In this document: in pieces, positions 12,250-61,383 of the stretch | Layout: each line of letters opens with the position of its first letter | Numbering within the stretch: position 1 is the stretch's first letter | Assembly (NCBI RefSeq): GCF_016925635.1 | Contig: NZ_CP070490.1 | Span: forward strand, 3,168,001 to 3,232,000 | DNA from: Lysinibacillus fusiformis | Lineage (GTDB): Bacteria > Bacillota > Bacilli > Bacillales_A > Planococcaceae | Reading direction: 5' to 3' | DNA: 64,000 nt | Translations under genes and position numbers: made by a program | The notes under the pieces: model-generated | Database searches by the model: none | Told to the model about the DNA's origin: nothing | Seen by the model: only the letters and a program-made list of their open reading frames with translations

Positions 12250-12289
12250 TCAAAAATGAGGCTGGGACAAAACCCACCTCTAAATTAAA

Positions 12290-12340
12290 AAGCCTGTGAA
12301 ATTTTACGATCAGTAAAATTTCACAGGCTTTAAATTTTTT
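12290..12340 (+). terminator. Perfect hairpin at the left end of IS1182 element
   Basis: Arms 12290-12307 and 12313-12330 are perfectly complementary (18 bp) around a GATCA loop and are followed by a T-rich tract. It would stop transcription reading in from rsiX, so it also serves as the rsiX terminator and shields the transposase gene. Confidence 0.85.
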
Positions 12341-12412
12341 CATAAAAAAATAAGGATCACTTCTGATAAAATTAAGTCACCACAACAAAATTATACAGAA
12401 AGAAGGATCCTT

Positions 12413-14017
12413 ATGTTTAAAAATTATAACATGAATCAATTAGTTTTGCCTTTAGATTTAGAAGTAACATTACAAAAAAATGATATTGCCTTCCATGTCC
12501 ACCATCTAGTTGAAAGTATCTCGCCTGAAGCGTTTGAACCATTCCTTCGAAATGAAGGCTGTCCCGCCTACCATCCACGCATGATGCTTAAAATTATCTT
12601 ATGTGCTTATACACAATCTGTCTTCTCAGGGCGTAAAATTGAAGCCCTATTAAAAGATAGTCTTCGGATGATGTGGCTAGCTCAAGGGTATGAACCAAGC
12701 TACCGCACGATCAACCGTTTTCGTGTTCAACCAGAAATGAAAGAGTTGATCCGCCAATGTTTCGTCCAATTCCGTTGCCAGTTGGTCCAAGAAGAATTAA
12801 TTGATCAGGAAGCTATTTTTATTGATGGAACAAAGATCGAAGCCAATGCGAACAAATTTACTTTCGTGTGGAAAAAATCCATCGAGAAATATCATAACGG
12901 ATTAATTGAAAAATCAAACCAGTTATACGATGAGCTACTCGAGAAAGAAATCATACCAGAAATTGAACGAGAAAATGTAGAAGAATTAGCAGTAGAAGAG
13001 CTCGCCCAGATGGTAGAAAAAGTAGACGAAGTGATTTCCGCGTATGATCAAAAAATAGAGGATTCATCGGATGTAGCTGCGCGAAAAGCTTTAAGAGCCG
13101 AACGGAAATTCCCAAAGCAAGCACGCAAACAATTAATCGACTATATTGTACGTAAACTAAAATATCAAAAAGACTTTGAAATCTTTGGCATGCGAAATAG
13201 TTATTCCAAGACGGACTCAGATGCCACATTTATGCGAATGAAGGATGACTATATGAAAAATGGTCAATTGAAAGCAGGTTATAACATCCAAGTCGCAACA
13301 GAAGGTCAATATGTGCTTGCCTATAGTATCTATTCGAACCCAACGGATACACGTACCTTAATCCCGTTTTTAGATGAAATCGAACAACATTATTTTGAAC
13401 TACCAAAACACGTTGTCGCAGATGCTGGATATGGTAGCGAACAAAATTATGATGATATCCTTTCGAATCGTAAACGAGAAGCCTTAATTACGTATAACTT
13501 GTATTTAAAAGAACAAAAGAAAAAGTATAAACAAAACGAATTCAATACAGCATACTGGGATTATGATGAAGAAAATGATCAATACACATGCCCGAACCAA
13601 CAACAGCTTGTATTTAAATATCGTACCACGAAAACGGATCAATATGATTTCACGCGCGAGTTTAAGGTATACGAATGTGAAGACTGTTCCGAATGCCCAT
13701 TCCGTTCATTATGTACAAAAGCAAAAGAAGGAAATAATCGTAAGTTAATAGTGAATGAGAAGTGGGAACAGCAAAAAGAATATGTAAGAACAAAGCTTTC
13801 AGAAGAAAAAACGAGTACCATTTATCGTCAACGCAAAATTGACGTGGAACCAGTTTTTGGATTCTTGAAAGCTAATTTGCGTTTCACTCGATTTTCTGTT
13901 CGAGGAAAATCGAAGGTTAAAAATGAAATAGGTCTGGCATTAATGGCTGTGAATTTAAGAAAATTCACAGCCATTAGGTATGGAGACAACATAAAAAATA
14001 GAGAAATCCTAATTTGA
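12413..14017 (+). CDS. IS1182-family transposase (DDE)
   Basis: Transposase of the surrounding insertion sequence, 534 residues. The N-terminal domain (1-120) has the IS1182/IS5-type pattern ending in SYRTINRFR. The catalytic core shows D in IFIDGTKIEANANK (near residue 142), D in VVADAGYGSEQN (near 340) and the C-terminal E region DVEPVFGFLKANLRFTRFSVRG (near 480). A Cys cluster near residues 423-436 (C..C..CPFRSLC) is typical of the family. The stop codon lies inside the right-end hairpin. The frame is intact, so the element may be active. Confidence 0.93.
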   Translation: MFKNYNMNQLVLPLDLEVTLQKNDIAFHVHHLVESISPEAFEPFLRNEGCPAYHPRMMLKIILCAYTQSVFSGRKIEALLKDSLRMMWLAQGYEPSYRTINRFRVQPEMKELIRQCFVQFRCQLVQEELIDQEAIFIDGTKIEANANKFTFVWKKSIEKYHNGLIEKSNQLYDELLEKEIIPEIERENVEELAVEELAQMVEKVDEVISAYDQKIEDSSDVAARKALRAERKFPKQARKQLIDYIVRKLKYQKDFEIFGMRNSYSKTDSDATFMRMKDDYMKNGQLKAGYNIQVATEGQYVLAYSIYSNPTDTRTLIPFLDEIEQHYFELPKHVVADAGYGSEQNYDDILSNRKREALITYNLYLKEQKKKYKQNEFNTAYWDYDEENDQYTCPNQQQLVFKYRTTKTDQYDFTREFKVYECEDCSECPFRSLCTKAKEGNNRKLIVNEKWEQQKEYVRTKLSEEKTSTIYRQRKIDVEPVFGFLKANLRFTRFSVRGKSKVKNEIGLALMAVNLRKFTAIRYGDNIKNREILI

Positions 14018-14040
14018 ATTCATTCAAATTAGGATTTCTC
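14001..14040. terminator. Perfect hairpin at the right end of IS1182 element
   Basis: Arms 14001-14018 and 14023-14040 form an 18-bp perfect stem around TTCA. The transposase stop codon (14015-14017) is inside the left arm. Probable terminator of the transposase gene and insulator toward the riboswitch. Confidence 0.8.
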
Positions 14041-14177
14041 ACTAATTGAGGCTAGTTATGTCCCAGCCTCATTTTTATAATACATACAAATCTAATCGGA
14101 TTTTTTTAAGCAGAACTATTTACTTTTTCTTGATAATTAATTATAGTAAGGTTGTAGTATAAAATAATATGATTCAT

Positions 14178-14356
14178 CTTCGGGGCAGGGTGAAAATCCC
14201 GACCGGCGGTAATAGAGTGGTAAACCGTTAATGTTTTTCATTAACTCGAATGGTTTATGCTACACTCTTCAGCCCGCGACCTGTGCAAATTTATTTGCAT
14301 GGCTGACTTGGTGTGATTCCAAGGCCGACAGTTAAAGTCTGGATGGGAGAAGATGG
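14178..14356 (+). ncRNA. FMN riboswitch (RFN element)
   Basis: The conserved FMN aptamer segments appear in order: CTTCGGGGCAGGGTG, AAATCCCGACCGGCGGT, CAGCCCGCGACC, TTGGTGTGATTCCAAGGCCG, ACAGTTAAAGTCTGGATGGG and AGAAGATGG. One variable arm (about 14212-14267) is extended by a long hairpin. The aptamer binds FMN and would favour the downstream terminator, lowering ribU expression when flavin is plentiful. Confidence 0.96.
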
Positions 14357-14473
14357 AGGTACGATCGTCATTCATTGTTATGAAGTGAACTATAGCCGAG
14401 CGCTTTTTTGTAGGGCTTTTTAAACAGTGCTCAAAAAATAGTTTATATTGACGCTTATTCGTCATGCCTTTCT

Positions 14474-16757: not shown

Positions 16758-16791
16758 AAAGGTGTATTCCATCTAATAGGAATACACCTTT
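16758..16791. terminator. Bidirectional terminator, left copy of a duplicated pair
   Basis: A 13-bp stem (16758-16770 with 16779-16791) lies right after the symporter gene. The same 34-bp hairpin recurs at 17352-17385 with 2 differences, on the other side of dispersed repeat copy 1. Confidence 0.9.
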
Positions 16792-16793
16792 CA

Positions 16794-17351
16794 TAGTGTT
16801 GAAAAACAAAACCATCAATAGAATTTTTGTGAAAGGTGAAAATGGTTTCCGTTGCAGGCTACTTGCTTTCCTGTGGGCGAGCGCCGAATCGCTTCCTCCG
16901 CTACCGCTCCGTGCAGGGTTTCGCCTGTCTCGCTATCCCACGGGAGTCAAGTAGCCCTCCACTCCAACCCATAAATATTTAATTTTTTTAGCAAAGATTT
17001 CCAAATAAAATGAAGATGTTCACTACTCTTTATGGAGGAGTGTTGTCACGCATCACTTCTCCACATTGAAAATAAAGGGCCTATCCCCCTAAGAATACAG
17101 TTATTGGGCTATTTGATTGCTATGCTAGTATGAAAAAAAGTAAAGACATTTTGCAGCATGGTTGATTGGAGTGGAGCCAGCGTCACTCCTAGGGGATTTA
17201 GCGTCACAGATGAGACCCTGGAGCGAACGGAAGTGAGTGAAGCGGCTCATCGGACGCCCCCTGGAAAGGACGCTGGCGGAACGGAAATCAACCCCTCGCC
17301 TTGCTAAAAGATCTTTTTCTGCTAGTGACATGATCTTTTTTCAACAACATG
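16794..17351 (+). repeat. Dispersed intergenic element, copy 1 (full length)
   Basis: A 558-bp non-coding unit between convergent genes. The left end starts TAGTGTTGAAAAAC and the right end finishes CAACAACATG; the ends resemble each other in inverted orientation (TTGAAAAA against TTTTTCAA). Module A (about 16850-16970) and module B (about 17160-17305) are G+C-rich imperfect palindromes and are inverted relatives of each other. They share TTGGAGTGG, ACCCTG, GAGCG, AAGCG, GGAAAG and AACGGAAA in the same order once A is reversed. An AT-rich spacer of about 190 bp separates them. Three further copies occur in this window. The element lies between duplicated terminator hairpins. Confidence 0.88.
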
Positions 17352-17388
17352 AAAGGTGTATTCCGTCTAATAGGAATACACTTTTTTT
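17352..17388. terminator. Bidirectional terminator, right copy of a duplicated pair
   Basis: Same hairpin as 16758-16791 (32 of 34 positions identical), directly abutting the right end of repeat copy 1 and followed by T. It serves the minus-strand STAS gene side and the plus strand. Confidence 0.88.
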
Positions 17389-17401
17389 AGTATGACAAGA
17401 A

Positions 17402-17788
17402 TTAATATTCGTTAAGTGATAGCTCTCCTAGCCAATCTTCTTTAATAATTTTCTTTGCTTGTTCTTCGCTTTTGGCAATAGGGAATACTTTATCAACCTG
17501 TGAAATAGCGAATAAGTTGCGAATGAAATCATCGACGACAATAATGGCAATTTTTTTATCTTTTACAGACACCTTCTTAGCGAAATTAACGATCATACCG
17601 AATCCGGTGCTATCGATATTTGTAACCTTTTGCATATCGATAATGTATCCGTGTTTTGTGTCCAAGCTAAGTGTTTGCAGCTCTGACTTTATATCTTCAA
17701 TTATCCCGTATTCTAAATCGCCAGTAAACGCAATCACAATATAATCAGCCTTTGTGTCAATATTCATTGCAATGTTCTTCTGATTCAT
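17402..17788 (-). CDS. STAS-domain anti-sigma factor antagonist (RsbV/SpoIIAA type)
   Basis: Small partner-switching protein of 128 residues. When unphosphorylated it would bind an RsbW-type kinase and free the kinase's target. The phosphorylation motif is conserved: S60 in NIDSTGFGMIV. The start is ATG 17788 with GGAGG about 10 nt upstream; the longer open frame upstream runs through the neighbouring chemoreceptor and is not coding. It is the last gene of a four-gene minus-strand group with an RsbW-like kinase and a PP2C phosphatase, which supply the natural opposing activities. Confidence 0.88.
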   Translation of the reverse strand: MNQKNIAMNIDTKADYIVIAFTGDLEYGIIEDIKSELQTLSLDTKHGYIIDMQKVTNIDSTGFGMIVNFAKKVSVKDKKIAIIVVDDFIRNLFAISQVDKVFPIAKSEEQAKKIIKEDWLGELSLNEY

Positions 17789-17825
17789 CCTATAGCGCCT
17801 CCATTTTTCTTTACTTGTTTGGGAT

Positions 17826-19523
17826 TTATTCAAACTTAAATTTATTAACTTCATTTTGTAAATTATCAGCAATTGATGATAGCTCATCCGAACTTTGTGT
17901 AATTTCTGCAACTGTCGCATATTGCTCTTCAGAAGTCGCGGCAATCTCCTCTGTAGCTGCTGCAGCGTCCTCGATAATACGTGAAATATCTTGGATAGCT
18001 TGTTGCACACCTAAGGAGTTGTCGTTAACATGTGTAAATGCAACTTTCATTTGTTCGACACCTTCTTCTGTTTCGACAACTTTCTCCACGATTTCTTTTA
18101 AGGCACTTCCACCTTTATTAATGATTGTTACTTGCTCCTCGACCGCCAATAGATTGCTTTCCATCGTCCTTACCGTCACAGAAGTTTCAGCTTGGATATC
18201 ATTAATGAGATTTGTAATTTGTCCAGCTGCTAAACTTGACTGTTCTGCTAGCTGACGAACCTCTGATGCAACGACAGCAAAGCCTTTTCCTTGATCGCCT
18301 GCTCGTGCTGCCTCGATGGCTGCATTGAGTGCTAACAGATTCGTTTGCTCAGCAATGCCTGTGATAACGGTAATAATACCACCAATTTCTTCAGAGCGCT
18401 TGCCTAACTTCTGGATAGAATCAGTTGCATAAGACACAGTTTTCGTCACATCACCTAAATGCATAATCGCTTCATTGATGGCTTCTTCTCCTTTGCGTGC
18501 GATATGAGTTGATTCAATAGCGCTATTTAAAGTGATTTCGGCCTTTTGTAAGCTCTTTGATACTTCCTCGATCGTTTTTTGCATCATGGAAACGATTCGT
18601 TCAGCCTGGTCGGATTGAGTCGTAGTACCAACAGCAATTTCATTCATTGTCAATGCGATTTGGTTAGATGCTTCACTTGTTTGATGGGATGATTCTGCTA
18701 AAGTGTGTGATGACTTTGCGATTTGATGTGCACTACCAGCCACAATCATTATCGTCTCTGTTAAATGATTTTTCATACTACTAAATGCGCGTGCTAATTC
18801 AGCGATTTCATCTTTGCCTTTCGGGTTTAACAGTTTAACATTTAAGTTTAGTTCTGCTAGCTCCTTGGCATTTGTACTCAGAATATTAATCGGATTAACA
18901 ATTTGTTTTTGTAAGAACCAACTAATTCCTCCAATCATCACAATGGCAATCACTAAGGAAATGGCTACATTCTCCAGTGCTGATTTTGTGGCAATGCTTA
19001 TATAAGGAGCGGTAGGGACAGCGGTTGCCCATACGCCGATAACCTCCCCTTGGCTATTTACTATAGGATCATAGGCTGCTTGATGCAAACTTCCTAAGAC
19101 ATTTGCAGAACCGATAAAGCGCTTTTTTTCTCCTAGCACAACAGTAGCAACCTCGTCAGAAACTTTTGTATTTAAAGCGCGTTGACCGTTATCTACTATA
19201 TTGGTACTTATACGAGTATCATTTTGAAAGATGGATACAGCATTCCCGTTTGTGAGTTCTCCAACTTTATCAGCTGCCTCAAAATTTTCTACCATATTGA
19301 TATCGCCCTTATAGAGTTGGTTGTTTTTAATGGACCATTCTCCAGGATATTTAGCGTCTAAATATTCATAGCTTACCTGTATATCTGATAGAAGCTTTGT
19401 ATCAGCACTTTCTAATAGATTGTTCTTGGCAACAAAAAAATTGACTCCTGCTAAAAGGGAAGTAAGTAAGATAATACAACCAAATATAAGCAGATTCATT
19501 TTTTTTCGTATAGATAACTTCAT
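17826..19523 (-). CDS. Methyl-accepting chemotaxis protein
   Basis: Membrane chemoreceptor, 565 residues. TM1 lies near residues 10-32, followed by an extracellular sensor of about 150 residues that resembles a single Cache domain ([20 protein letters not shown]). TM2 lies near 187-207, then HAMP, then a cytoplasmic signalling coil with the highly conserved tip [21 protein letters not shown] near residue 388. The C-terminus carries no CheR-docking pentapeptide (it ends NKFKFE). Unusually, it lies inside a partner-switching operon, between the RsbW-like kinase and the STAS gene, so it may feed this switch rather than only the flagellar motor. Confidence 0.92.
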
Positions 19524-19552
19524 TAAAACACGCCCCCAATTTTACGTTTACT

Positions 19553-19972
19553 TTATATATGAATCTTTTTTGAAATACCAACTAAAAATTTTGTTTCTGA
19601 AATATTTTCAAACCAAATATGGTCGACCATATTTTTGACAAAAAATAAACCGCGTCCACGATCAGAATAATCAAGTTCGTCTAAATCGAATTGAAGAACT
19701 TTGTCCCAGTCATTTTCGGCAATACCTTTTGCTTCATCAGTGACTGTTATTTTTATTTCTTCGTATGATTGCGTTACATGTATTTGGATCTCCTTTTGAG
19801 AGGGTGTGTCAATTTTCCCCATAGCCTCTACGGCATTGATGACTAATTCATGTACAACAAATCGTAATTCTCGTTTATAAGGTAGATTATATAACTCTGT
19901 ATAATTCTCCATTACTTGATCAATAAAGGCTATAGCTTGTGTATCAGGATTTACATTGAGTGTGAATTCCAT
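19553..19972 (-). CDS. RsbW-like serine kinase / anti-sigma factor
   Basis: GHKL-type ATPase of about 139 residues, like RsbW/SpoIIAB: it phosphorylates the STAS partner and sequesters a target. Visible motifs: N-box HELVINAVEA near residue 42, G1-type DEAKGIAE and G2-type DRGRGLFFVKNMVD. The start is ATG 19972, with GTAGGTGA upstream overlapping the end of the preceding gene; the TTG at 19978 abuts that stop codon. No sigma factor gene is next to it, so the target is not evident. Confidence 0.86.
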   Translation of the reverse strand: MEFTLNVNPDTQAIAFIDQVMENYTELYNLPYKRELRFVVHELVINAVEAMGKIDTPSQKEIQIHVTQSYEEIKITVTDEAKGIAENDWDKVLQFDLDELDYSDRGRGLFFVKNMVDHIWFENISETKFLVGISKKIHI

Positions 19973-19978
19973 CTTCAA

Positions 19979-21109
19979 TCACCTACCCTTTAATGTAATT
20001 GTTATTGAAACGACTGTGATGTCATCACTGTAATCATTATCAAATAAATTGTATTTTTGAGAAAACTTTTGTAGTGCATAGCTATTATCCTGTGAAGCAT
20101 AACTGTAGAAAAAGTCCATATCAATTGAATTTTGCTCGTTTAATGTTAATAATCCATCCGTATAAAGAATAATGCGGTGCCAGCCTGATAAAGGTATTGT
20201 TTTTTTATTTATTTGAATAGTAGGGAATAGTCCGAGGATAGGCGTATTCGCTGGGAGGAAGACTGTTTCTCCATATTTTCCAAATAAAAAACCAGAAGGA
20301 TGAGCCGCATTCACATAGTGCAAAGTTCCGTTTTTTGTATCTAGAAGTATGTAGATTGCCGTCATTAAAAAACGGTCCATATCATCAGAAAATAGCTCGT
20401 ATATTTGGCGGTTAAGTTCTTGAATTACTGCTACTGGATCAATTAACTTCGTAATCATTCCTTTTAATAAGGATCTAATAGACATAGTAACGAGTGATGC
20501 AGCGATACCATGCCCCATTGCATCATACAGAAGAATGGCGGTTAAATGTTCATTAATTTTAAACCAGCAGTACATGTCACCTCCTAGTGTATTGGATGTT
20601 ACATAAAGACCATCAACCTGTATATGCTCAAGATTTAATGGGGGAGATAGTGCATTCTTTTGGAATTTTTTTGCAACAAACAAATCTTTTTGAATCATAC
20701 TTTCCTGCTGCTTTCGAAGCGTGGCTTCCCTCTGATATTTTAAGGCTACTTGAATACGAGTCTTAAATTGAGTGAAATCAAAAGGTTTTAAAATAAAGTC
20801 GAAAATACCAGCTTCAAATACCCTATCAATTGTTATGGTTTTTTCGTAGGTAGTAGATAGAAGGATAGGGACTTCTATCCAATTTTTAAGTACATGAATG
20901 TGCTGACAAATTTCCTCGCAATTTCTGAGTGTCATTTTAGTGTCGAGTACGATTAATTCTAGCTCATCTTTCAAAGATGAATCTACTAAATAATTCATTG
21001 CTGCTTCCGTTGTTGAAAAGCAATGAATATTTGGGATGCCGATACGATGAAAATATTTTTGCAGACGCAGCACATCATTACTTACGCTGCCAATGATTAA
21101 TACTGACAT
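19979..21109 (-). CDS. Response regulator with PP2C phosphatase output (RsbU/RsbP type)
   Basis: Receiver-phosphatase fusion of 376 residues. Residues 1-125 form a receiver domain with phosphoacceptor Asp in IVLDTKM and Lys in FILKPFD. A coiled linker follows (about 125-160), then a SpoIIE/PP2C domain with metal-binding motifs LGGDMY, YDAMGHG and a final DDITVVSI. It would dephosphorylate the STAS antagonist when its receiver is phosphorylated. It is the first gene of the minus-strand group. No histidine kinase partner is adjacent, so the input must come from elsewhere. Confidence 0.9.
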   Translation of the reverse strand: MSVLIIGSVSNDVLRLQKYFHRIGIPNIHCFSTTEAAMNYLVDSSLKDELELIVLDTKMTLRNCEEICQHIHVLKNWIEVPILLSTTYEKTITIDRVFEAGIFDFILKPFDFTQFKTRIQVALKYQREATLRKQQESMIQKDLFVAKKFQKNALSPPLNLEHIQVDGLYVTSNTLGGDMYCWFKINEHLTAILLYDAMGHGIAASLVTMSIRSLLKGMITKLIDPVAVIQELNRQIYELFSDDMDRFLMTAIYILLDTKNGTLHYVNAAHPSGFLFGKYGETVFLPANTPILGLFPTIQINKKTIPLSGWHRIILYTDGLLTLNEQNSIDMDFFYSYASQDNSYALQKFSQKYNLFDNDYSDDITVVSITITLKGR

Positions 21110-21589
21110 GCCTACTCAATTCACCGCCTTATGTATCTATAACTAAATATTTCCTGGAAGCCAACATAATGATTTCTAACCATAATATATACTCCGTATT
21201 TACTTATAATATGAATAAATTAAAATTCTAATTTGCTATAAATTTACCAATAAATATGGCATTATACAAGGCTTTTGTGATATAAAGTAAAACTTAATCA
21301 GTGGGGTTTTTGACATCCAAGCTCATGAAGAGTGTTCTAGGGTTATGTTTTTAGCAATGTTCTTGTGTTATATGCATTTGCTGCATGAAGATGTAGTAAA
21401 CGCTTCGCTCCTAATCATGCAAATAAACTGTCCAATCATTAGACAGACAAAGAGTTTTTATAAGACTAAAGACCTTTTGTAGAAAGTAGTAATTTTGTCC
21501 TTTATTAAAGATGAAAGAACGCTATTTTAGATGGAAATGTGATAAAAAAATTAATCTAAAAAAGGGATTAATATATTCGATAATATGCA
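21110..21589. other. Divergent intergenic region
   Basis: About 480 bp between the PP2C regulator (-) and the glnA control region (+). It is AT-rich with no ORF of credible coding character. A short inverted pair CTGTC/GACAG lies near 21430-21446. It must carry the promoter of the partner-switching operon, but I could not assign it with confidence. Confidence 0.5.
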
Positions 21590-21606
21590 TGTTAGAAAAC
21601 CTTACA
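21590..21606 (+). promoter_or_regulatory. GlnR/TnrA box 1 upstream of glnA
   Basis: TGTTAGAAAACCTTACA matches the GlnR/TnrA consensus TGTNA-N7-TNACA exactly. It lies just ahead of the predicted -35 element. Confidence 0.85.
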
Positions 21607-21612
21607 TATATA

Positions 21613-21641
21613 TTGCGTATCCTCCATTTTTAATGTATTTT
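21613..21641 (+). promoter_or_regulatory. Probable glnA promoter
   Basis: TTGCGT (21613-21618), a 17-nt spacer and TATTTT (21636-21641), placed between the two GlnR/TnrA boxes. Confidence 0.6.
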
Positions 21642-21662
21642 AAAAACAGTCATAAAAATTTA

Positions 21663-21679
21663 TGTTAACTAAAATTACA
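21663..21679 (+). promoter_or_regulatory. GlnR/TnrA box 2 in the glnA leader
   Basis: TGTTAACTAAAATTACA again matches TGTNA-N7-TNACA exactly. It starts 73 bp after box 1, close to seven helical turns, so both boxes face the same side of the DNA. The pair resembles the two-operator arrangement of Bacillus glnRA. Confidence 0.85.
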
Positions 21680-21694
21680 TTGGAGTGGTGAAGA

Positions 21695-23029
21695 ATGAAA
21701 CATTATACAAAAGAAGATATTGTACGCCGAGTGAAGGAAGAAAATGTGAAATTTATTCGCCTACAATTTACAGATATATTAGGAACAATTAAAAATGTGG
21801 AAGTGCCTGTCAGTCAATTAGAGAAAGCGTTAGATAATAAAGTCATGTTTGATGGCTCTTCAATCGAGGGCTTTGTGCGTATTGAAGAATCAGATATGTA
21901 TTTAAAGCCCGATATCGATACCTTCGTAATTTTTCCTTGGACTGCTGAAAAAGGGAAAGTAGCTCGCTTTATTTGTGATATTGCGAGACCAGATGGTACA
22001 CCATTTGAAGGAGACCCACGCTCCAATTTAAAACGTGTATTAAAGGAAATGGAGGAGCTAGGCTTTACTTCGTTTAATTTAGGACCAGAGCCTGAGTTTT
22101 TCCTGTTCAAGCTGGACGAAAAGGGACACCCAACACTGGAATTAAATGATAGTGGGGGCTATTTTGATTTAGCGCCAACTGATTTGGGGGAGAACTGTCG
22201 TCGTGACATCGTTTTAGAGTTAGAGGGAATGGGCTTTGAAATTGAAGCTTCTCATCATGAAGTAGCACCTGGCCAGCATGAAATTGACTTTAAGTATGCC
22301 AGTGCCATTGAGGCATGTGATAATATTCAAACATTTAAACTAGTCGTAAAAACCATTGCTGCACAGCATGGCCTCCACGCAACATTTATGCCAAAGCCAC
22401 TGTTTGGGGTCAATGGGTCAGGAATGCATTTTAACTTATCGTTATTTGAAGGTGATAAAAACGCCTTCTACGATGAACATGCTGACTTACAATTAAGTGC
22501 AACCGCACGTAGCTTTATGGCAGGGATCATGAAGCATGTGCATGGCTTTACAGCTATCACGAATCCACTTGTCAATTCCTATAAACGATTAGTACCTGGC
22601 TATGAGGCACCTTGCTATGTAGCATGGTCAGCTCAAAACCGCTCACCACTAATTCGTATTCCAGCAGCACGTGGACTATCTACACGGATTGAATTGCGTT
22701 CAGTTGATCCAGCAGCAAACCCGTATTTAGCAATGGCTGTTATTCTAGCATCTGGACTAGATGGCATACGTAAAGATTTAACGCCACCAGCTGCGGTAGA
22801 TCGTAATATTTATAAAATGACAGCAGCGGAGCGGGAGTTGAATGGGATTGACAGTTTACCATCCTCATTGGAATTTGCGCTAATCGAATTAGAGATGGAT
22901 GCCATTGTTCGTGATGCACTGGGTGACCATATTTACGATAAATTTACAGCTGCAAAAGAGATTGAATGGAATAAATATCGCACACGTGTCCATAATTGGG
23001 AGCGTGAGGAGTATTTAAAGATGTACTAA
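21695..23029 (+). CDS. glnA: Glutamine synthetase type I
   Basis: Makes glutamine from glutamate, ammonia and ATP; a dodecameric cytoplasmic enzyme. The 444-residue length and sequence fit the Gram-positive GSI-alpha class: latch region near residue 60 ([10 protein letters not shown]), metal/substrate residues in [45 protein letters not shown] and the late [14 protein letters not shown] tail. GSI-alpha enzymes are feedback-inhibited and pass the signal to GlnR and TnrA. Here glnA stands without glnR beside it, yet two GlnR/TnrA boxes control it. A terminator follows directly. Confidence 0.97.
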
Positions 23030-23035
23030 AAAAAT

Positions 23036-23066
23036 GTTGGGGCTGTTTTTTGCCCCAACTTTTTTA
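23036..23066 (+). terminator. Terminator after glnA
   Basis: GTTGGGGC (23036-23043) pairs with GCCCCAAC (23052-23059), followed by six T. Confidence 0.92.
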
Positions 23067-23117
23067 TGTGACATGAACTTCTTTTTGCTCTATCATAAGA
23101 TTAAAGGAGTGTGGGCA

Positions 23118-23303
23118 ATGACACAAATAACTCAAGTTGTGACAATTCAAAACAATGATATTGTGCAATTTGAACTTGATATTAACCGGGCTTTAGTAGA
23201 TTTAAAAGGCTTTTTAATACTTGATATTAAATACAATACGCTCTTTATTGGAGAACAGACAGTCATCCATTCTGCTTTAATTATTTATCAGCAAAATGAT
23301 TAG
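23118..23303 (+). CDS. Small Cse60-like protein
   Basis: A 61-residue protein beginning MTQITQVVTIQNND at ATG 23118, with AAAGGAGTG upstream. The pattern of an N-terminal strand, a helix with FELDINRALVDLKG, a strand LDIKYNT and the ending HSALIIYQ resembles the sporulation-expressed Cse60/DUF2758 family of Bacillus, whose function is not known. The longer upstream frame crosses the glnA terminator and is not coding. Family assignment is by pattern only. Confidence 0.6.
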   Translation: MTQITQVVTIQNNDIVQFELDINRALVDLKGFLILDIKYNTLFIGEQTVIHSALIIYQQND

Positions 23304-23351
23304 AACATTTAACAAGATGGGGTCATGTCGATGAGACGTGACTTTTTTTAC

Positions 23352-23735
23352 TCAAATAAATAAAGATAATAGAAAGACTCGATCTTCTGGAAAGGTTAAT
23401 GGTAATCGGGCAACTTCGTCCTTAGATTTCCATGCGATGTCATAAATTAATTCGTCAGGATCTTGAATTAGCATTTGTCCGCCAGCCAGGACAGTTTCAA
23501 AGTAATATACCTCCACAATTTCATTCTGCTTATGATGAATTTCTTTAAGAATCGTTACGATATAGCCTGTTTCTTCATAAACCTCTCGAATACAGCAAGC
23601 CCTAAAATCTTCCGTTGCCTCTTTACCACCTGATGGAACAGCCCATCTTTTCTCTTCATCCTTATTCCCTTGCAAAACCATTAATAATTGATTGTCTTCG
23701 TTCAAACAAATAGCGGCAGCACCTTGCCATTTCAC
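23352..23735 (-). CDS. Nudix hydrolase
   Basis: MutT-like pyrophosphohydrolase of 127 residues acting on a nucleoside-diphosphate-linked compound. The Nudix box is complete, G-x5-E-x7-REVYEETGY, near residues 37-59 (starting SGGKEATEDF). The product has the minimum Nudix size with no extra domain, so the substrate cannot be predicted. It is transcribed toward the Cse60-like gene. Confidence 0.88.
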   Translation of the reverse strand: MKWQGAAAICLNEDNQLLMVLQGNKDEEKRWAVPSGGKEATEDFRACCIREVYEETGYIVTILKEIHHKQNEIVEVYYFETVLAGGQMLIQDPDELIYDIAWKSKDEVARLPLTFPEDRVFLLSLFI

Positions 23736-23870
23736 AAGTAAAACCCCTTTTTATCTATTTTTACCTATGGAGTATGTAATTGTAAATAAAAACAGACGGA
23801 TATCGAAAAAATTCTATATACTTTTGCTATAATAAAATTATCATGTTAATTGAACAGAGGAGGGGTGTAC

Positions 23871-25166
23871 TTGAAAATACGGTTAGGTCTTCTTGGCCCT
23901 TCAGACTCAATTGAATTTGTCGAAGCGGTCTTGAAAAATTGGCCAGAGTTTATATGTACCTCGATAGAATGTCTCGCAGAAGCGGATTTAGATGTAAAAG
24001 TGACACCTCTATTGCAAGAAGAAATGGATATGTGGCTGTGTACAGGGCCAATCACCTATGATATTGTGCAAAGTTGGAATCAGCTAAAGACACCCATTTT
24101 TTATGTTATGTATAAAGGATCTTCCTTATATAAAACGGTGTTAAGGGTATTGTATGAACACAAAATCGAAGTGAATGAAATCAGCTATGATGCTGGTAAT
24201 AATGATGCATGGGAGCAAGCTTTGGTGGAGGCAGGAATCGAAGTGAAGCCTAAATTTGTGGAATCTGAGACGATCTCCTTAAATGAGCTTGTACACTATC
24301 ATTTTAAGCTTTGGGAAAGTGGCCAAACAAAGGCGGCCATTACAGGTCATCCCATTCATCATGAGCTACAACAGCTAGGTGTTCCAACCTATCGACTGTT
24401 CCCATCCTCAATGGCAGTAGAAGCCGTTATTACGAATATGCTAAGAACATATGAAATGTTACGTTATAAGGCGACGCAAATTGCTGTGCAAATTATCGAA
24501 ATTGATCCTTTTTTAGGAATCGCAAAAAATAATTTTTCTACAGATGAGTTGTTTAGAATGGAACTGAAGATTATGGAGCATTTGCTAACATATACAAAAA
24601 GCATCCATGGTTCCATTAAATCTACAAGATTTGGGCGTTATGTAATTTTCACGACGAGAGGCTTAATGGAGGACATAACGAAGAATTTTAGCCAAATGCC
24701 TGATATAGAAGATTTCACACAACTAGATCAAGAGGCCATGACTTGTGGAATTGGAATTGGTCAAACAGTATATGACGCAGAAATCAACGCTGGAAATGCT
24801 TTATTGCATGCAAAGGACTGCGGTAAGGGATCGTGGATGGTTTGTTTCGATGATAAAAAAATCGCTGGACCCCTTGGAAAGCCTGAACAACTTACATATT
24901 CCTATACCTCAGAAGAATTAGAGGCTTTAAGTCAAGAAACCTCCTTAAGTGTGATGACATTAAATAAGTTAAAGTCATCATTGAAAAAATTAGCAAGTGA
25001 TGAGCTGAATGCTAATGAGCTAGCTAAATATATGCAAATACCAGCTCGAAGTGCACGCCGAATATTAACAACCCTTGAGGAAAAAGGATTCGCTGAAGTA
25101 GTTGCAGAGGAAAAACCCCACACACGCGGACGTCCACGGAAGGTTTATAAAATTTCTCCATTCTAA
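23871..25166 (+). CDS. Transcriptional regulator with GGDEF-like core and C-terminal winged helix
   Basis: A 431-residue regulator of no named family that I can assign. The N-terminal part (1-190) looks like a sensor of the PrpR-N kind (ITGHPIHHELQQLGVPTYRL and SMAVEAVITNML). The central part (about 200-330) has a nucleotide-cyclase/GGDEF-like pattern (GRYVIFTTRG, GIGIGQTVYDAEINAGNALLHA) without a GGDEF signature. The C-terminus has a winged helix (LAKYMQIPARSARRILTTLEEKGF) followed by an AT-hook-like RGRPRK. The start is TTG 23871 with GAGGAGGGG upstream. It converges on the M20 amidohydrolase/MFS pair across repeat copy 2 and might control it. Confidence 0.7.
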   Translation: MKIRLGLLGPSDSIEFVEAVLKNWPEFICTSIECLAEADLDVKVTPLLQEEMDMWLCTGPITYDIVQSWNQLKTPIFYVMYKGSSLYKTVLRVLYEHKIEVNEISYDAGNNDAWEQALVEAGIEVKPKFVESETISLNELVHYHFKLWESGQTKAAITGHPIHHELQQLGVPTYRLFPSSMAVEAVITNMLRTYEMLRYKATQIAVQIIEIDPFLGIAKNNFSTDELFRMELKIMEHLLTYTKSIHGSIKSTRFGRYVIFTTRGLMEDITKNFSQMPDIEDFTQLDQEAMTCGIGIGQTVYDAEINAGNALLHAKDCGKGSWMVCFDDKKIAGPLGKPEQLTYSYTSEELEALSQETSLSVMTLNKLKSSLKKLASDELNANELAKYMQIPARSARRILTTLEEKGFAEVVAEEKPHTRGRPRKVYKISPF

Positions 25167-25199
25167 AAAGAGAGTCCATAATTACATGGACTCTCTTTT
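25166..25199. terminator. Bidirectional terminator, left copy of a duplicated pair
   Basis: A 34-bp hairpin (stem of 13 bp, loop about 8 nt, A-rich and T-rich flanks). It is identical at all 34 positions to 25742-25775 on the other side of repeat copy 2. Confidence 0.92.
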
Positions 25200-25739
25200 C
25201 ATGTTGTTGAAAAAAGATAATGTCAACGGCAGAAAAAGCAACTTTGCAAGGTAAGGGGTTGATTTCCGTTCCGCCAGTGTCCTTTCCAGGGGGCGTCCGA
25301 TGAGCCGCTTCACTCACTAACGTTCGCTCCAGGGTCTCCTCTGTGACGCTAAATCCCCTAGGAGTGACGCTGGCTCCACTCCAATCAACCATTCTACAAA
25401 GTGTCTTTACTTTTTTTCATAGTAGCATAGCGATCAAATCGCCCATTATCTGTATTCTTAACGGGGATAAGCTCTTATTTTCAGTGTGGAGAAGTGATGC
25501 GTGACAACACCTCTTCATAAAGAGTAGTGAGCACCTTCACTTTATTTGAAAACCTTTGCTAAAAAGTTAGTGGGTTGAAGTGGAAGGCTACTTGACTCCC
25601 ATGGGATAGCGAGACAGGCGAGCCGCTGCACGGAGCGTGAGCGGAGGAAGCGGCTCGGCGTTCGCCCACAGGAAAGCAAGTAGCCTGCAACGGAAATCCA
25701 TTTCTACCTTTCAATTGACTGTTTTGTTTTTCAACACTA
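25200..25739 (-). repeat. Dispersed intergenic element, copy 2 (full length, inverted)
   Basis: A 540-bp copy of the element at 16794-17351, in reverse orientation: CATGTTGTTG at its left edge and CAACACTA at its right. It carries module B (about 25245-25395) and module A (about 25575-25705). In module A the inner stem CGAGCCGC/GCGGCTCG is perfect, where copies 1 and 3 have different bases on both sides, which hints at selected secondary structure. It lies between convergent genes and between two identical terminators. As in copy 1, the CATG end abuts one terminator directly and the TAGTG end is 2 bp from the other. Confidence 0.88.
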
Positions 25740-25741
25740 AG

Positions 25742-25775
25742 AAAAGAGAGTCCATAATTACATGGACTCTCTTTT
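25742..25775. terminator. Bidirectional terminator, right copy of a duplicated pair
   Basis: Exact 34-bp duplicate of 25166-25199. It lies 4 bp from the stop codon end of the minus-strand M20 gene and acts as its terminator. Confidence 0.92.
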
Positions 25776-56011: not shown

Positions 56012-56181
56012 CAAATTTATAGTGCTGAAAAACAAAACCACCCATAGCATTTTGGTAAAAGGTGAAAATGGATTTCCGTTGCAGGCTACTTGTTTTCCTG
56101 TGAGCGAGCGCCGAACCGCTTCCTTCGCTCCGCTCCGTTTAGAGTTTCGCCTGACTCGCTATCCCACGGGAGTCAAGTAGC

Positions 56182-57773
56182 CATAGCCGTGTCCTTAAGA
56201 AAACATCAGACATCCTACGCCAGATTTTCGTGTGTTTATCTTCTGTTTAAAATGGGTATTACACAAGGAGTGAGGGAAAAATGGCCTCACTAAATAAACT
56301 ATACAAATTATCCATCCAAATATTGGGTTTACATCGACTTTTAAGAAGTTTTGCGTTTTTTACACTTTAGGCAAAATGACGAAACGTTTCGGGTGAGCGT
56401 ATCGAAATAGACATATAGCTGTTTTTTCGAATGCCACATACTTTTTAAAAGTCGATTTATTTGTTTCGCAATCAACCGGACCGTCTTTCTTTCACTAATC
56501 CTCCGTTTTCTTGTCACCCATAGATCATTTCTCATCATTCCCATGATCATTTCAGTCAATAAAAGCACAATACTTTGAAGATAGAAATGACATAACCATC
56601 GTTCAATCTTCACCTTCTTCACCTTATCGACTTCTAAATCTGATTTCCATGTTTTAAATAAGAGCTCGATTTGCCAGCGTAATCGGTAAAGTTCATGAAT
56701 TTCACTTGCTGGCATATCCTCTGGTACATTTGTTAAATAGATGACCACTCCAGGTATTTGTTCTACTTCATTTTTATGGACTTGCCCTTGTTTCTTTTGA
56801 CGTCTTCTTTTTTCCCGCTTGTGTAGCTCTTTTTTCTGTTCCTCTGAGAGGCGATAGAGAATACAACGTGCAGGCATTTTTTCGTGTCGTCCTACAAATA
56901 ATTGGGACCACTCTTTGTATTCGCCACGTACCATATCTAATGCGATTTCTTCTAAATGAATTTGTTTGTAACGGCGACTTTCAATCAATTTCCCATTTGG
57001 ATGACGAGGTGGATGACTTACTTCGACAAACAATTGCGTATCTTTTTTCGTTTTTGTGATATAGAAAGCACCTTTTGCGTGCACCTTTTTAAAAAAATCG
57101 AATTGAAAATAGCCTAAATCCTGTAGAACCAGTTCTCTCTCCTGAATCAAAGGTAATCGCGTCATTCCTGCTGGATTATCGGCATCACGTCCGTTCATTA
57201 AATCAAAATAAAGTAGCTGTTGGGTTAAATAATCAAACTCCACTTGCACTTTAACAGACGAACAATGGACACCCTGAAAATTTCCCTGATAGGCATCTGG
57301 CAATTTGATCGTTGTGCTATCTAAAATACGTATTCGAGTAAATGTGTATCCCGTTAGCTTGGGGAAGGCGAGTTGAAGCTGCGTTTTGAATAATCGTCCA
57401 AAAATGGTTTCCAAAAAAGTAACAGCCCGTTCATCAAAGCGTTTATTAAGAGCCGATTTCGTCATAAATATATCCTGCTCCGCCAAGTCCGTACAAAGCG
57501 TTTCAAGCGAATCACTGATAATCTCACTCTTTTTCAAAAACAGAAAGTGTAAAAATTGTGCCGCACTAAACGAACGCTCGCGTTGAATAAAACCCGATAA
57601 TCTACCCACCTCTTTTACTTCATTTTTCCCAAGTATCTGAAAAAGTGGCGCAAGTAATTGAATATTTTCTGGTTTCATTTTGCTGGACCTCCTTTATCAA
57701 GTGTACTTATCTATACCTTGATAAGAGAAATATGAACCAACGAATAAAGGAAATCACTAAGGACACGGCTATG
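56182..57773 (-). mobile_element. IS4-family (IS231-like) insertion sequence with 10-bp target duplication
   Basis: 1592 bp, inverted repeats CATAGCCGTGTCCTTA (56182-56197) and its complement at 57758-57773. The target duplication GTCAAGTAGC is present at 56172-56181 and 57774-57783. Joining the flanks restores the continuous module A of the dispersed repeat, as seen in copies 1 and 4, so the IS entered a pre-existing repeat. Confidence 0.93.
56341..57678 (-). CDS. IS4-family transposase
   Basis: A 445-residue DDE transposase. Asp is in RILDSTTIKLPDA (near residue 119), the second Asp region in LQDLGYFQFDFFKKV (near 189), and the IS4 Y-R-E-K signature in YRLRWQIELLFKTWK (near 331), which supplies the catalytic Glu. 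Size and target duplication fit the IS231 group. Frame intact, so the element may still be active. Confidence 0.95.
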   Translation of the reverse strand: MKPENIQLLAPLFQILGKNEVKEVGRLSGFIQRERSFSAAQFLHFLFLKKSEIISDSLETLCTDLAEQDIFMTKSALNKRFDERAVTFLETIFGRLFKTQLQLAFPKLTGYTFTRIRILDSTTIKLPDAYQGNFQGVHCSSVKVQVEFDYLTQQLLYFDLMNGRDADNPAGMTRLPLIQERELVLQDLGYFQFDFFKKVHAKGAFYITKTKKDTQLFVEVSHPPRHPNGKLIESRRYKQIHLEEIALDMVRGEYKEWSQLFVGRHEKMPARCILYRLSEEQKKELHKREKRRRQKKQGQVHKNEVEQIPGVVIYLTNVPEDMPASEIHELYRLRWQIELLFKTWKSDLEVDKVKKVKIERWLCHFYLQSIVLLLTEMIMGMMRNDLWVTRKRRISERKTVRLIAKQINRLLKSMWHSKKQLYVYFDTLTRNVSSFCLKCKKRKTS

Positions 57774-58106
57774 GTCAAGTAGCCTTCCACTCCAACCCAT
57801 TAATATGTTTTTTTAGCAGCGGTTTTCAAATAAAGTGAAGGTGTTCACTACTTTATATGGAGAGGTGTTGTCACGCATCGCTTCTCCACATTTTTCACTA
57901 CGGTTAGTATGAAAGAAAAGGAATTTGCAGAATGGTTGATTGGAGTGGAGCCAGCGTCACAGAGAAGACCCTTGAGCGAACGGAAGTGAGTGAAGCGGCT
58001 CATCGGACGCCCCCTGGAAAGGACGCTGGCGGAACGGAAATCAACCCCTCGCTTTGCCAAAAGGTCTTTTTCTGTTAGTGACATTAACTTTATTCAACAA
58101 CATGAA

Positions 58107-60012: not shown

Positions 60013-60051
60013 ATAGTTTGCTATACTAAGAGTAATAATCGAATAAAAAGT

Positions 60052-60140
60052 TTTCTAGGGTTCCGTAGCTATTGCTAGTCTGGTCCGAGAGAAAACCACA
60101 AATTGATTTTGTGACACGGAAGGATAAAAGCCTGGGAGAT
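60052..60140 (+). ncRNA. Guanidine-I riboswitch (ykkC)
   Basis: Conserved ykkC segments in order: TCTAGGGTTCCG, CTGGTCCGAGAGAAAAC, an AT-rich hairpin (60096-60114), then ACACGGAAGGATAAAAGCC and TGGGAGA. It lies directly upstream of a paired SMR exporter, the expected target. Guanidine binding would disrupt the terminator that follows and switch the exporter on. Confidence 0.95.
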
Positions 60141-60924: not shown

Positions 60925-60943
60925 AAACAGGCACTCCTGCATA
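60925..60943. repeat. 19-bp duplication, left copy, at repeat copy 4
   Basis: AAACAGGCACTCCTGCATA, identical to 61344-61362. The right copy is the 5' half of the opuA terminator hairpin; here the other half is missing, so only half a terminator was duplicated, or the rest was lost. Confidence 0.88.
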
Positions 60944-61343
60944 GTGTTGAAAAAAAACAATCAATAGAATTTTTGTGAATGGTGAAAATGGTTTCCGTTG
61001 CAGGCTACTTGCTTTCCTGTGGTCGAGCGCCGAGCATCCCACGAGAGTCAATTAGCCTTCCACTCCAACCCATAAAAATGTTAACTTTTTAGCAAAGGTT
61101 TTCACTACCCTTTATGGAGAGATGTTGTCACTACACATTGAAAATAGGAGCCTATCTAATTATACAAATCATGGGCTATTTGATCGCTACGGTTAGTATG
61201 AAAGATAACGCAAAGACACTTTGCAGAATGGTTGATTGGAGTGGAGCCAGCGTCACAGAGGAGACCCTGGAGCGAACGGAAATCAACCCCGCACCTTGCT
61301 AAAAGGTCTTTTTCTGCTAGTGACATGATCTTTTTTCAACAAC
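60942..61343 (+). repeat. Dispersed intergenic element, copy 4 (internally deleted)
   Basis: A 402-bp copy with TAGTGTTGAAAA at the left and TTTTTTCAACAAC at the right, between convergent genes. Module A has lost its inner hairpin. Module B has lost the 21-bp segment between AGCGTCA repeats, as in copy 3, and also the segment between two GAACGGAA direct repeats, so half the palindrome is gone. It is flanked by a 19-bp direct duplication. Confidence 0.85.
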
Positions 61344-61383
61344 AAACAGGCACTCCTGCATAAGCGGAAGTGCCTGTTTTTAT
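61344..61383 (-). terminator. Terminator of opuA, containing the right 19-bp duplication
   Basis: AACAGGCACTTCC-type arms (61345-61356 with about 61367-61378) form a hairpin; T/A-rich flanks allow termination from both sides. It abuts the right end of repeat copy 4. Confidence 0.82.

Follow-up and report, generated by a model that had tools for sequence, protein, structure and literature searches.

The insertion of a miniature inverted-repeat transposable element (MITE) of 540-560 bp, copies of which lie in a 64,000-nucleotide stretch of the Lysinibacillus fusiformis genome (contig NZ_CP070490.1, positions 3,168,001 to 3,232,000; hereafter the window), duplicates a target that contains a terminator hairpin, so that the same complete stem-loop stands on both sides of the element. 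The evidence presented here supports this directly, and comprises the geometry of the duplication, its generality among copies, the single hairpin observed at empty sites, the same behaviour in a related insertion sequence (IS) and the terminal sequences shared by the two. The MITE is very probably moved in trans by a DDE transposase of the IS1182 family, which would choose the stem-loop by its structure, join the element at or close to the 5' foot of the stem on each strand and thereby double it. Target duplications are normally short and of fixed length, set by the spacing of the active sites; here the duplicated length follows the target hairpin, implying recognition of DNA structure by the transposase.

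Paired hairpins around the MITE copies

The preliminary description of the window had reported a 34-bp terminator on either side of MITE copies 1 and 2, with the TAGTG end of the element lying 2 bp from its terminator. On rechecking, the two terminators agree at 34/34 positions for copy 2 and at 32/34 for copy 1 (Table 1). The supposed gap disappears: its two bases (TG or AG) are the element's own last bases, the element therefore reads CAT...ATG or CAT...AAG, and both hairpin duplicates are flush with it. A search with copy 2 of the single 5.01-Mb contig that makes up the window's genome yielded at least 40 full copies and 5 fragments, the count being a lower bound in that 40 of 147 candidates were scored. 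There are 89 occurrences of the end motif CATNNTGTTGMAAAA in this genome and none of the reversed control. The 40 copies measure 527-569 bp and contain no transposase-sized open reading frame (ORF), the longest starting with ATG being at most 95 aa (median 50), and the MITE gave no Rfam match at the gathering threshold. A short element with terminal inverted repeats and flush target duplications, lacking a transposase gene, is what defines a MITE.

With both ends fixed, flush duplicates scoring at least 14 flank 27 of the 40 copies, while the maximum score among 1560 mismatched left/right flank pairs from the same copies is 2; the pairing is therefore not due to chance. Three more copies pair when indels are allowed (L025, 27.5; L030, 23.5; L046, a borderline 16.0), against a maximum of 14 in 1560 mismatched pairs scored in slightly shorter windows. 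The same hairpin thus stands flush on both sides in 30/40 copies, that is, in most of them, when the flanks of all the scored genomic copies are compared as the preliminary description had proposed. It might be supposed that the hairpin is a terminal part of the element and travels with it, since the same hairpin is found on the two sides of a given copy, but the hairpins differ from copy to copy, as had been claimed for copies 1 and 2, with no mismatched pair scoring above 2, and the same hairpin is already present at the empty site; this explanation retains practically no probability.

The pairing extends beyond these copies. Of 18 further two-ended copies, comprising 13 of the MITE (in this genome and in relatives) and 5 IS entries, 14 pass, with L108 and L111 among them representing a single element; seven entries whose two ends were not recognisable were left out of this count (L053, L071, L072, L073, L095, L103 and L104), L095 being the same copy as L039 and L104 being without a match. 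A second sample consisted of 20 loci of relatives, picked among the matches listed only by the presence of two opposed end motifs. The same test was passed by 14/20 of them, with the dyad centred in 14 (ties favoured zero). Six sites are common to the near-identical genomes G012 and G149; with each of them counted once, 10/14 loci pass. One of the loci (L250), and perhaps another (L238), is orthologous to a copy in the window's genome (L099 and L094, respectively), as judged by the hairpin sequence. In the corresponding control, 380 mismatched pairs score at most 3, shared sites excepted. Across the genus the end motif is unevenly distributed, with counts of 46-89 in five of 32 genomes and at most 13 elsewhere (0-4 for the control), which suggests separate bursts. 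At three loci (L012, L173 and L175) a second element end directly adjoins a hairpin that belongs to another copy, which gives the impression that a doubled hairpin was targeted a second time.

The uninterrupted sites of relatives show what was present before insertion. MITE copy 2 is missing in the genomes G143 and G171, where the matches of the two query halves overlap by 37 and 34 bp, an overlap that corresponds to the hairpin; in G009 the upstream gene and a single hairpin are found at this site, and the contig stops soon after. For 14 other sites, taken from the better pairs, the joined flanks with a single hairpin were searched in five relatives. Spanning orthologous loci were retrieved in two lots, 33 (each place being counted a single time) and a further 13, all of them with the junction. 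One hairpin is present in 46/46 of these uninterrupted loci, which cover 14 of the 15 sites (L018, with no locus, is the exception); in three of the 46 (L216, L218 and L225) the hairpin had diverged below the match threshold and was recognised by folding. The site of an IS copy discussed below (L086) is likewise empty, with one hairpin, in five relatives. Because the uninterrupted orthologous loci hold one hairpin, the insertion duplicates the stem-loop, and the single terminator that the preliminary description expected in strains without the insertion is found, at copy 2 of the window among others. Tandem terminators do occur in bacteria, and an element inserted between two that pre-existed would present the same flanks; the single hairpin at all 46 loci makes such an origin very improbable. 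Four occupied orthologous loci were also retrieved, with two hairpins in three of them (L165, L227 and L229) and a single recognisable one in the fourth (L228); only some of the loci that looked split in the joined-flank search were retrieved. At one of the occupied loci (L229, positions 550-1345, from G171) a different element, whose ends resemble CAGACTGT.GACAAA, lies between two copies of the terminator that the MITE copy L035 uses.

Geometry of the duplication and nature of the target

The duplication is 14-37 bp long, with a median of 32, over 48 paired sites, or 47 if L108 and L111 are not both counted; four of these (L021, L052, L098 and L178) just reach the minimum score. The proposal that insertion doubles a target containing the hairpin thus stands, and its fixed length of about 34 bp does not. 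Both a fixed 34-bp duplication and a constant distance of 14 bp measured from the loop were considered and rejected, the former by the range of lengths and the latter by stems of 5-15 pairs. The centre of the dyad is the centre of the duplication in 42/48 sites, and at most one further base pair is possible outside the duplication in 38/48. An independent hairpin search, in which the duplication was not used, was carried out in 47 reconstructed empty sites. Both edges of the hairpin found lie within 1 bp of those of the duplication in 31/47 sites and within 2 bp in 33/47, while both edges fall within 2 bp in 23/940 windows of the same length placed at random; the centres agree to within 1 bp in 42/47, and the lengths of hairpin and duplication correlate with r = 0.67. 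The duplication is thus centred on the hairpin and ends at its foot usually, not always.

The targets are mostly terminators, as originally described, and the claim requires widening to palindromes of other kinds. An A-rich flank outside on the left and a T-rich one outside on the right are both lacking in 11/48 sites, and the duplications of 14 bp at L178 and 21 bp at L017 do not resemble classical terminators. It therefore seems that the element targets structure and not terminator function. A transposase that produces a long-stagger duplication and favours AT-flanked terminators, thus reading the hairpin as sequence and not as structure, would account for the terminator-like appearance of most targets, for the median of 32 bp and for the 9/47 sites at which the stem runs past the duplication. 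It does not readily account for a duplication that varies from 14 to 37 bp and yet remains centred on the hairpin to within 1 bp in 42/47 sites, and it is considered unlikely.

The 33 paired sites of this genome are located mainly at gene ends, as judged from ORFs: 16 have converging gene ends on both sides within 120 bp, 14 adjoin a single gene 3' end and 3 adjoin none, such that a gene 3' end is found within 120 bp of 30/33. A hairpin is kept on each side after insertion, and both flanking terminators presumably still work. If so, landing between genes would cost either neighbour little, and this low cost could explain the amplification of the element.

The probable IS1182-family partner and a proposed model of insertion

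One end motif in the window's genome adjoins a PF13751 transposase fragment. The IS at this locus is 1538 bp long, codes for an IS1182-family transposase broken by a stop codon, and is flanked by a duplicated hairpin of 33 bp. Versions free of the stop are found in Caryophanon latum (L110), Metasolibacillus meyeri (L111), Neobacillus (L112) and Bacillus (L113), and in the genomes G100, G001 and G005; these IS are of about 1.55 kb, with ORFs of 459-464 aa, and have CAT-NN-TGTTGA-like terminal inverted repeats at both ends (variants CAC and CTT). The profile NF033551 is matched by 4/4 group members, L110 scoring 273.5 bits against a cut-off of 270. The broken transposase scores 271.5 bits when the tool reads through the stop, and its two pieces alone score 194 and 51.8 bits, under the cut-off. 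Together with the Pfam domains DUF772, DDE_Tnp_1 and DDE_Tnp_1_6, these matches assign the IS of about 1.55 kb to the IS1182 family. Paired duplicated hairpins flank 11/15 distinct IS copies, a fragment (L180) not being among the 15. When 45 bases of the MITE and IS ends are compared, with eight of the 15 IS rows coming from G001 and G005, the likeness of the left MITE end to the IS end E2, and of the right MITE end to E1 and E2, is reached in 0/2000 shuffles each, and that of the left end to E1 in 24/2000. By this comparison the MITE shares terminal sequences with the IS1182-family IS, and apparently uses the enzyme of this related element.

The window also contains a second, different IS of the IS1182 family (Table 1), with ends GAGGCTGGGACA and a transposase match at about 12425-13972 (NF033551, 427.6 bits). 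It is flanked by AAAAAT and ATTTTT, and at the empty site a full hairpin lies between those tracts in G143, and a similar one in G171. This IS has replaced its hairpin, as reported for IS1272 (PMC4923244, PMC5678879); the replacing mode is represented by this one insertion. A tree of 31 IS1182-family proteins unites seven members of the duplicating group in a single clade (100/100); the replacing IS belongs to a separate clade (100/100) of seven rows, with no repeats above the control. The label "duplicating" requires three changes on the tree, and 0/500 shuffles are as low; L172 bears this label because of its near-copy L173, its own flanks being unpaired. At 3/30 other IS1182-family loci (L185, L189 and L190, the last being outside the tree) palindromic duplications likewise exceed the control maximum (19 in 539). 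The direct repeats recorded for members of the family reportedly span a wide range of lengths.

According to the excerpted text of two reports, IS1272 and TnSha1, both of the IS1182 family, insert at stem-loops that share no sequence consensus and include several terminators, and IS1272 deletes or replaces the stem-loop without target duplication (PMC4923244, PMC5678879). The present elements are thus alike in their IS1182-family transposase and stem-loop targets, and differ in that the stem-loop removed by IS1272 is kept and doubled; deletion of the stem-loop without duplication is seen in the replacing IS of the window and not in the MITE. The preliminary description knew of no standard transposon that makes such a duplication. 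This is partly right: hairpin targeting is known for the family from the same excerpts, and duplication of the whole stem-loop has already been drawn as a hypothetical pathway (PMC5678879). In the model of Wan et al. 2017 (Fig. 13), joining at the 3' feet removes the extruded stem-loop and joining at the 5' feet, pathway b, would double it, the latter being offered as a possibility for which the excerpted text names no element (PMC5678879). The MITE and its IS fit what pathway b predicts, and the duplicating and replacing outcomes fit the published model of 5' and 3' feet. The MITE resembles the bacterial MITEs described in the excerpted text of a further publication (PMC10969869) in its small size, terminal inverted repeats, target duplication and derivation from an IS, and differs from them in that none there has a whole hairpin of variable length as its duplication. 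In the literature searched, which left ISfinder, TnPedia and the main IS reviews aside and was seen in part, no report of whole-hairpin target duplication as a finding was encountered, and prior notice is possible; a search combining MITE, Lysinibacillus and terminator yielded nothing relevant.

The following course of events would account for these results. The MITE would be mobilised in trans by the IS1182-family DDE transposase, with the target picked by its DNA secondary structure, a stem-loop that is usually an intrinsic terminator. An extruded hairpin or cruciform may bring the feet of the stem together, whereupon the two element ends would be joined, presumably by DDE chemistry, at or near the two 5' feet, one per strand. 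Joining in this manner sets the stagger equal to the length of the palindrome, and gap repair would then leave a complete hairpin on each side of the element.

Several observations weigh against this interpretation. Ten of the 40 copies have no pair (L009, L013, L014, L015, L022, L028, L036, L039, L041 and L044); by direct reading these have a damaged-looking end or flank or, in L039, a second partial element following, and L013 and L036 look like the result of a deletion between the GTTGT of the hairpin and the GTTGT of the element end. The correlation of duplication length with stem length (r 0.88) is partly built in, stems having been counted inside the duplication, and the independent search chose another hairpin at L021, L029 and L034. 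At the 9/47 sites mentioned above the stem can be extended by 3-12 bp beyond the duplication on both sides, and the cut is therefore not always at the foot. As for the enzyme, a stop codon interrupts the sole transposase of the duplicating group that was detected in the window's genome, and an AlphaFold model of the transposase from four sequences gave a predicted local distance difference test (pLDDT) score of 42.8. Past the first 16 bases, just the left MITE end matches the IS (left-E2, 21/2000; right, 401/2000). Finally, in 4/15 IS copies (L172, L176, L177 and L181) both ends match and the flanking hairpins differ; these are therefore not the product of a simple duplication, and recombination between copies may be guessed at.

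Group IIC introns and IS200/IS605 elements also insert at or beside hairpins; they use other enzymes and are not known to duplicate the hairpin. Such elements act on single strands, and a variant of the proposed mechanism, in which insertion takes place into a single-strand hairpin at the replication fork or behind RNA polymerase and not into a duplex cruciform, is a tentative possibility that the present data do not separate from attack on a cruciform. Returning to structure-guided joining at the 5' feet, it appears somewhat more probable than the contrary that one branch of the IS1182 family lets the target structure set the duplication length and joins at the 5' feet, keeping its neighbours terminated, whereas the other joins at the 3' feet and removes the stem-loop, the two being outcomes of one structure-guided reaction in one family. 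With both duplicating and replacing members of the IS1182 family together in a single genome, the published, as yet untested model can be put directly to the test.

Features of the window

Table 1. Elements and hairpins in the window, with positions counted from its first nucleotide
Feature	Position	Strand	Locus or remark
Second, different IS1182-family IS; replaced terminator hairpin	12258..14070	+	L080; empty sites L230, L231
Duplicated terminator hairpin, MITE copy 1, low-coordinate side	16758..16791	.	L048
MITE copy 1, 560 bp, ends CAT...ATG	16792..17351	-	
Duplicated terminator hairpin, MITE copy 1, high-coordinate side, 32/34	17352..17385	.	
Duplicated terminator hairpin, MITE copy 2, low-coordinate side; single in G143 and G171	25166..25199	.	
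MITE copy 2, 542 bp, ends CATGTTGTTGAAAAA...TTTTTCAACACTAAG	25200..25741	+	
Duplicated terminator hairpin, MITE copy 2, high-coordinate side, 34/34	25742..25775	.	
MITE copy 4, interrupted by other element	56018..58104	-	ends by direct reading
Surviving half of left hairpin, MITE copy 3	60925..60939	.	direct reading
MITE copy 3, shortened	60940..61343	-	
Complete right hairpin, MITE copy 3	61344..61379	.	direct reading

MITE copy 2 folds as a single long imperfect hairpin (z -5.4). Its GC-rich inner stretches (25254-25402 and 25575-25698) also match numerous other genomes of the genus, in which the remainder of the element is often missing. By direct reading, no left hairpin is visible at copy 4, and a hairpin-like sequence comes after position 58104. 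The insert in this copy (56183-57772) holds an ORF of 445 aa on the minus strand (56341-57678) that by eye looks like an IS4-type transposase. A further MITE copy of this genome is also split, at about positions 880-2308 of its locus (L085), by an element with two ORFs that by eye have the look of an IS3-family pair. Two riboswitches are present in the window, a flavin mononucleotide (FMN) riboswitch at 14172-14358 and a guanidine-I riboswitch at 60044-60140.

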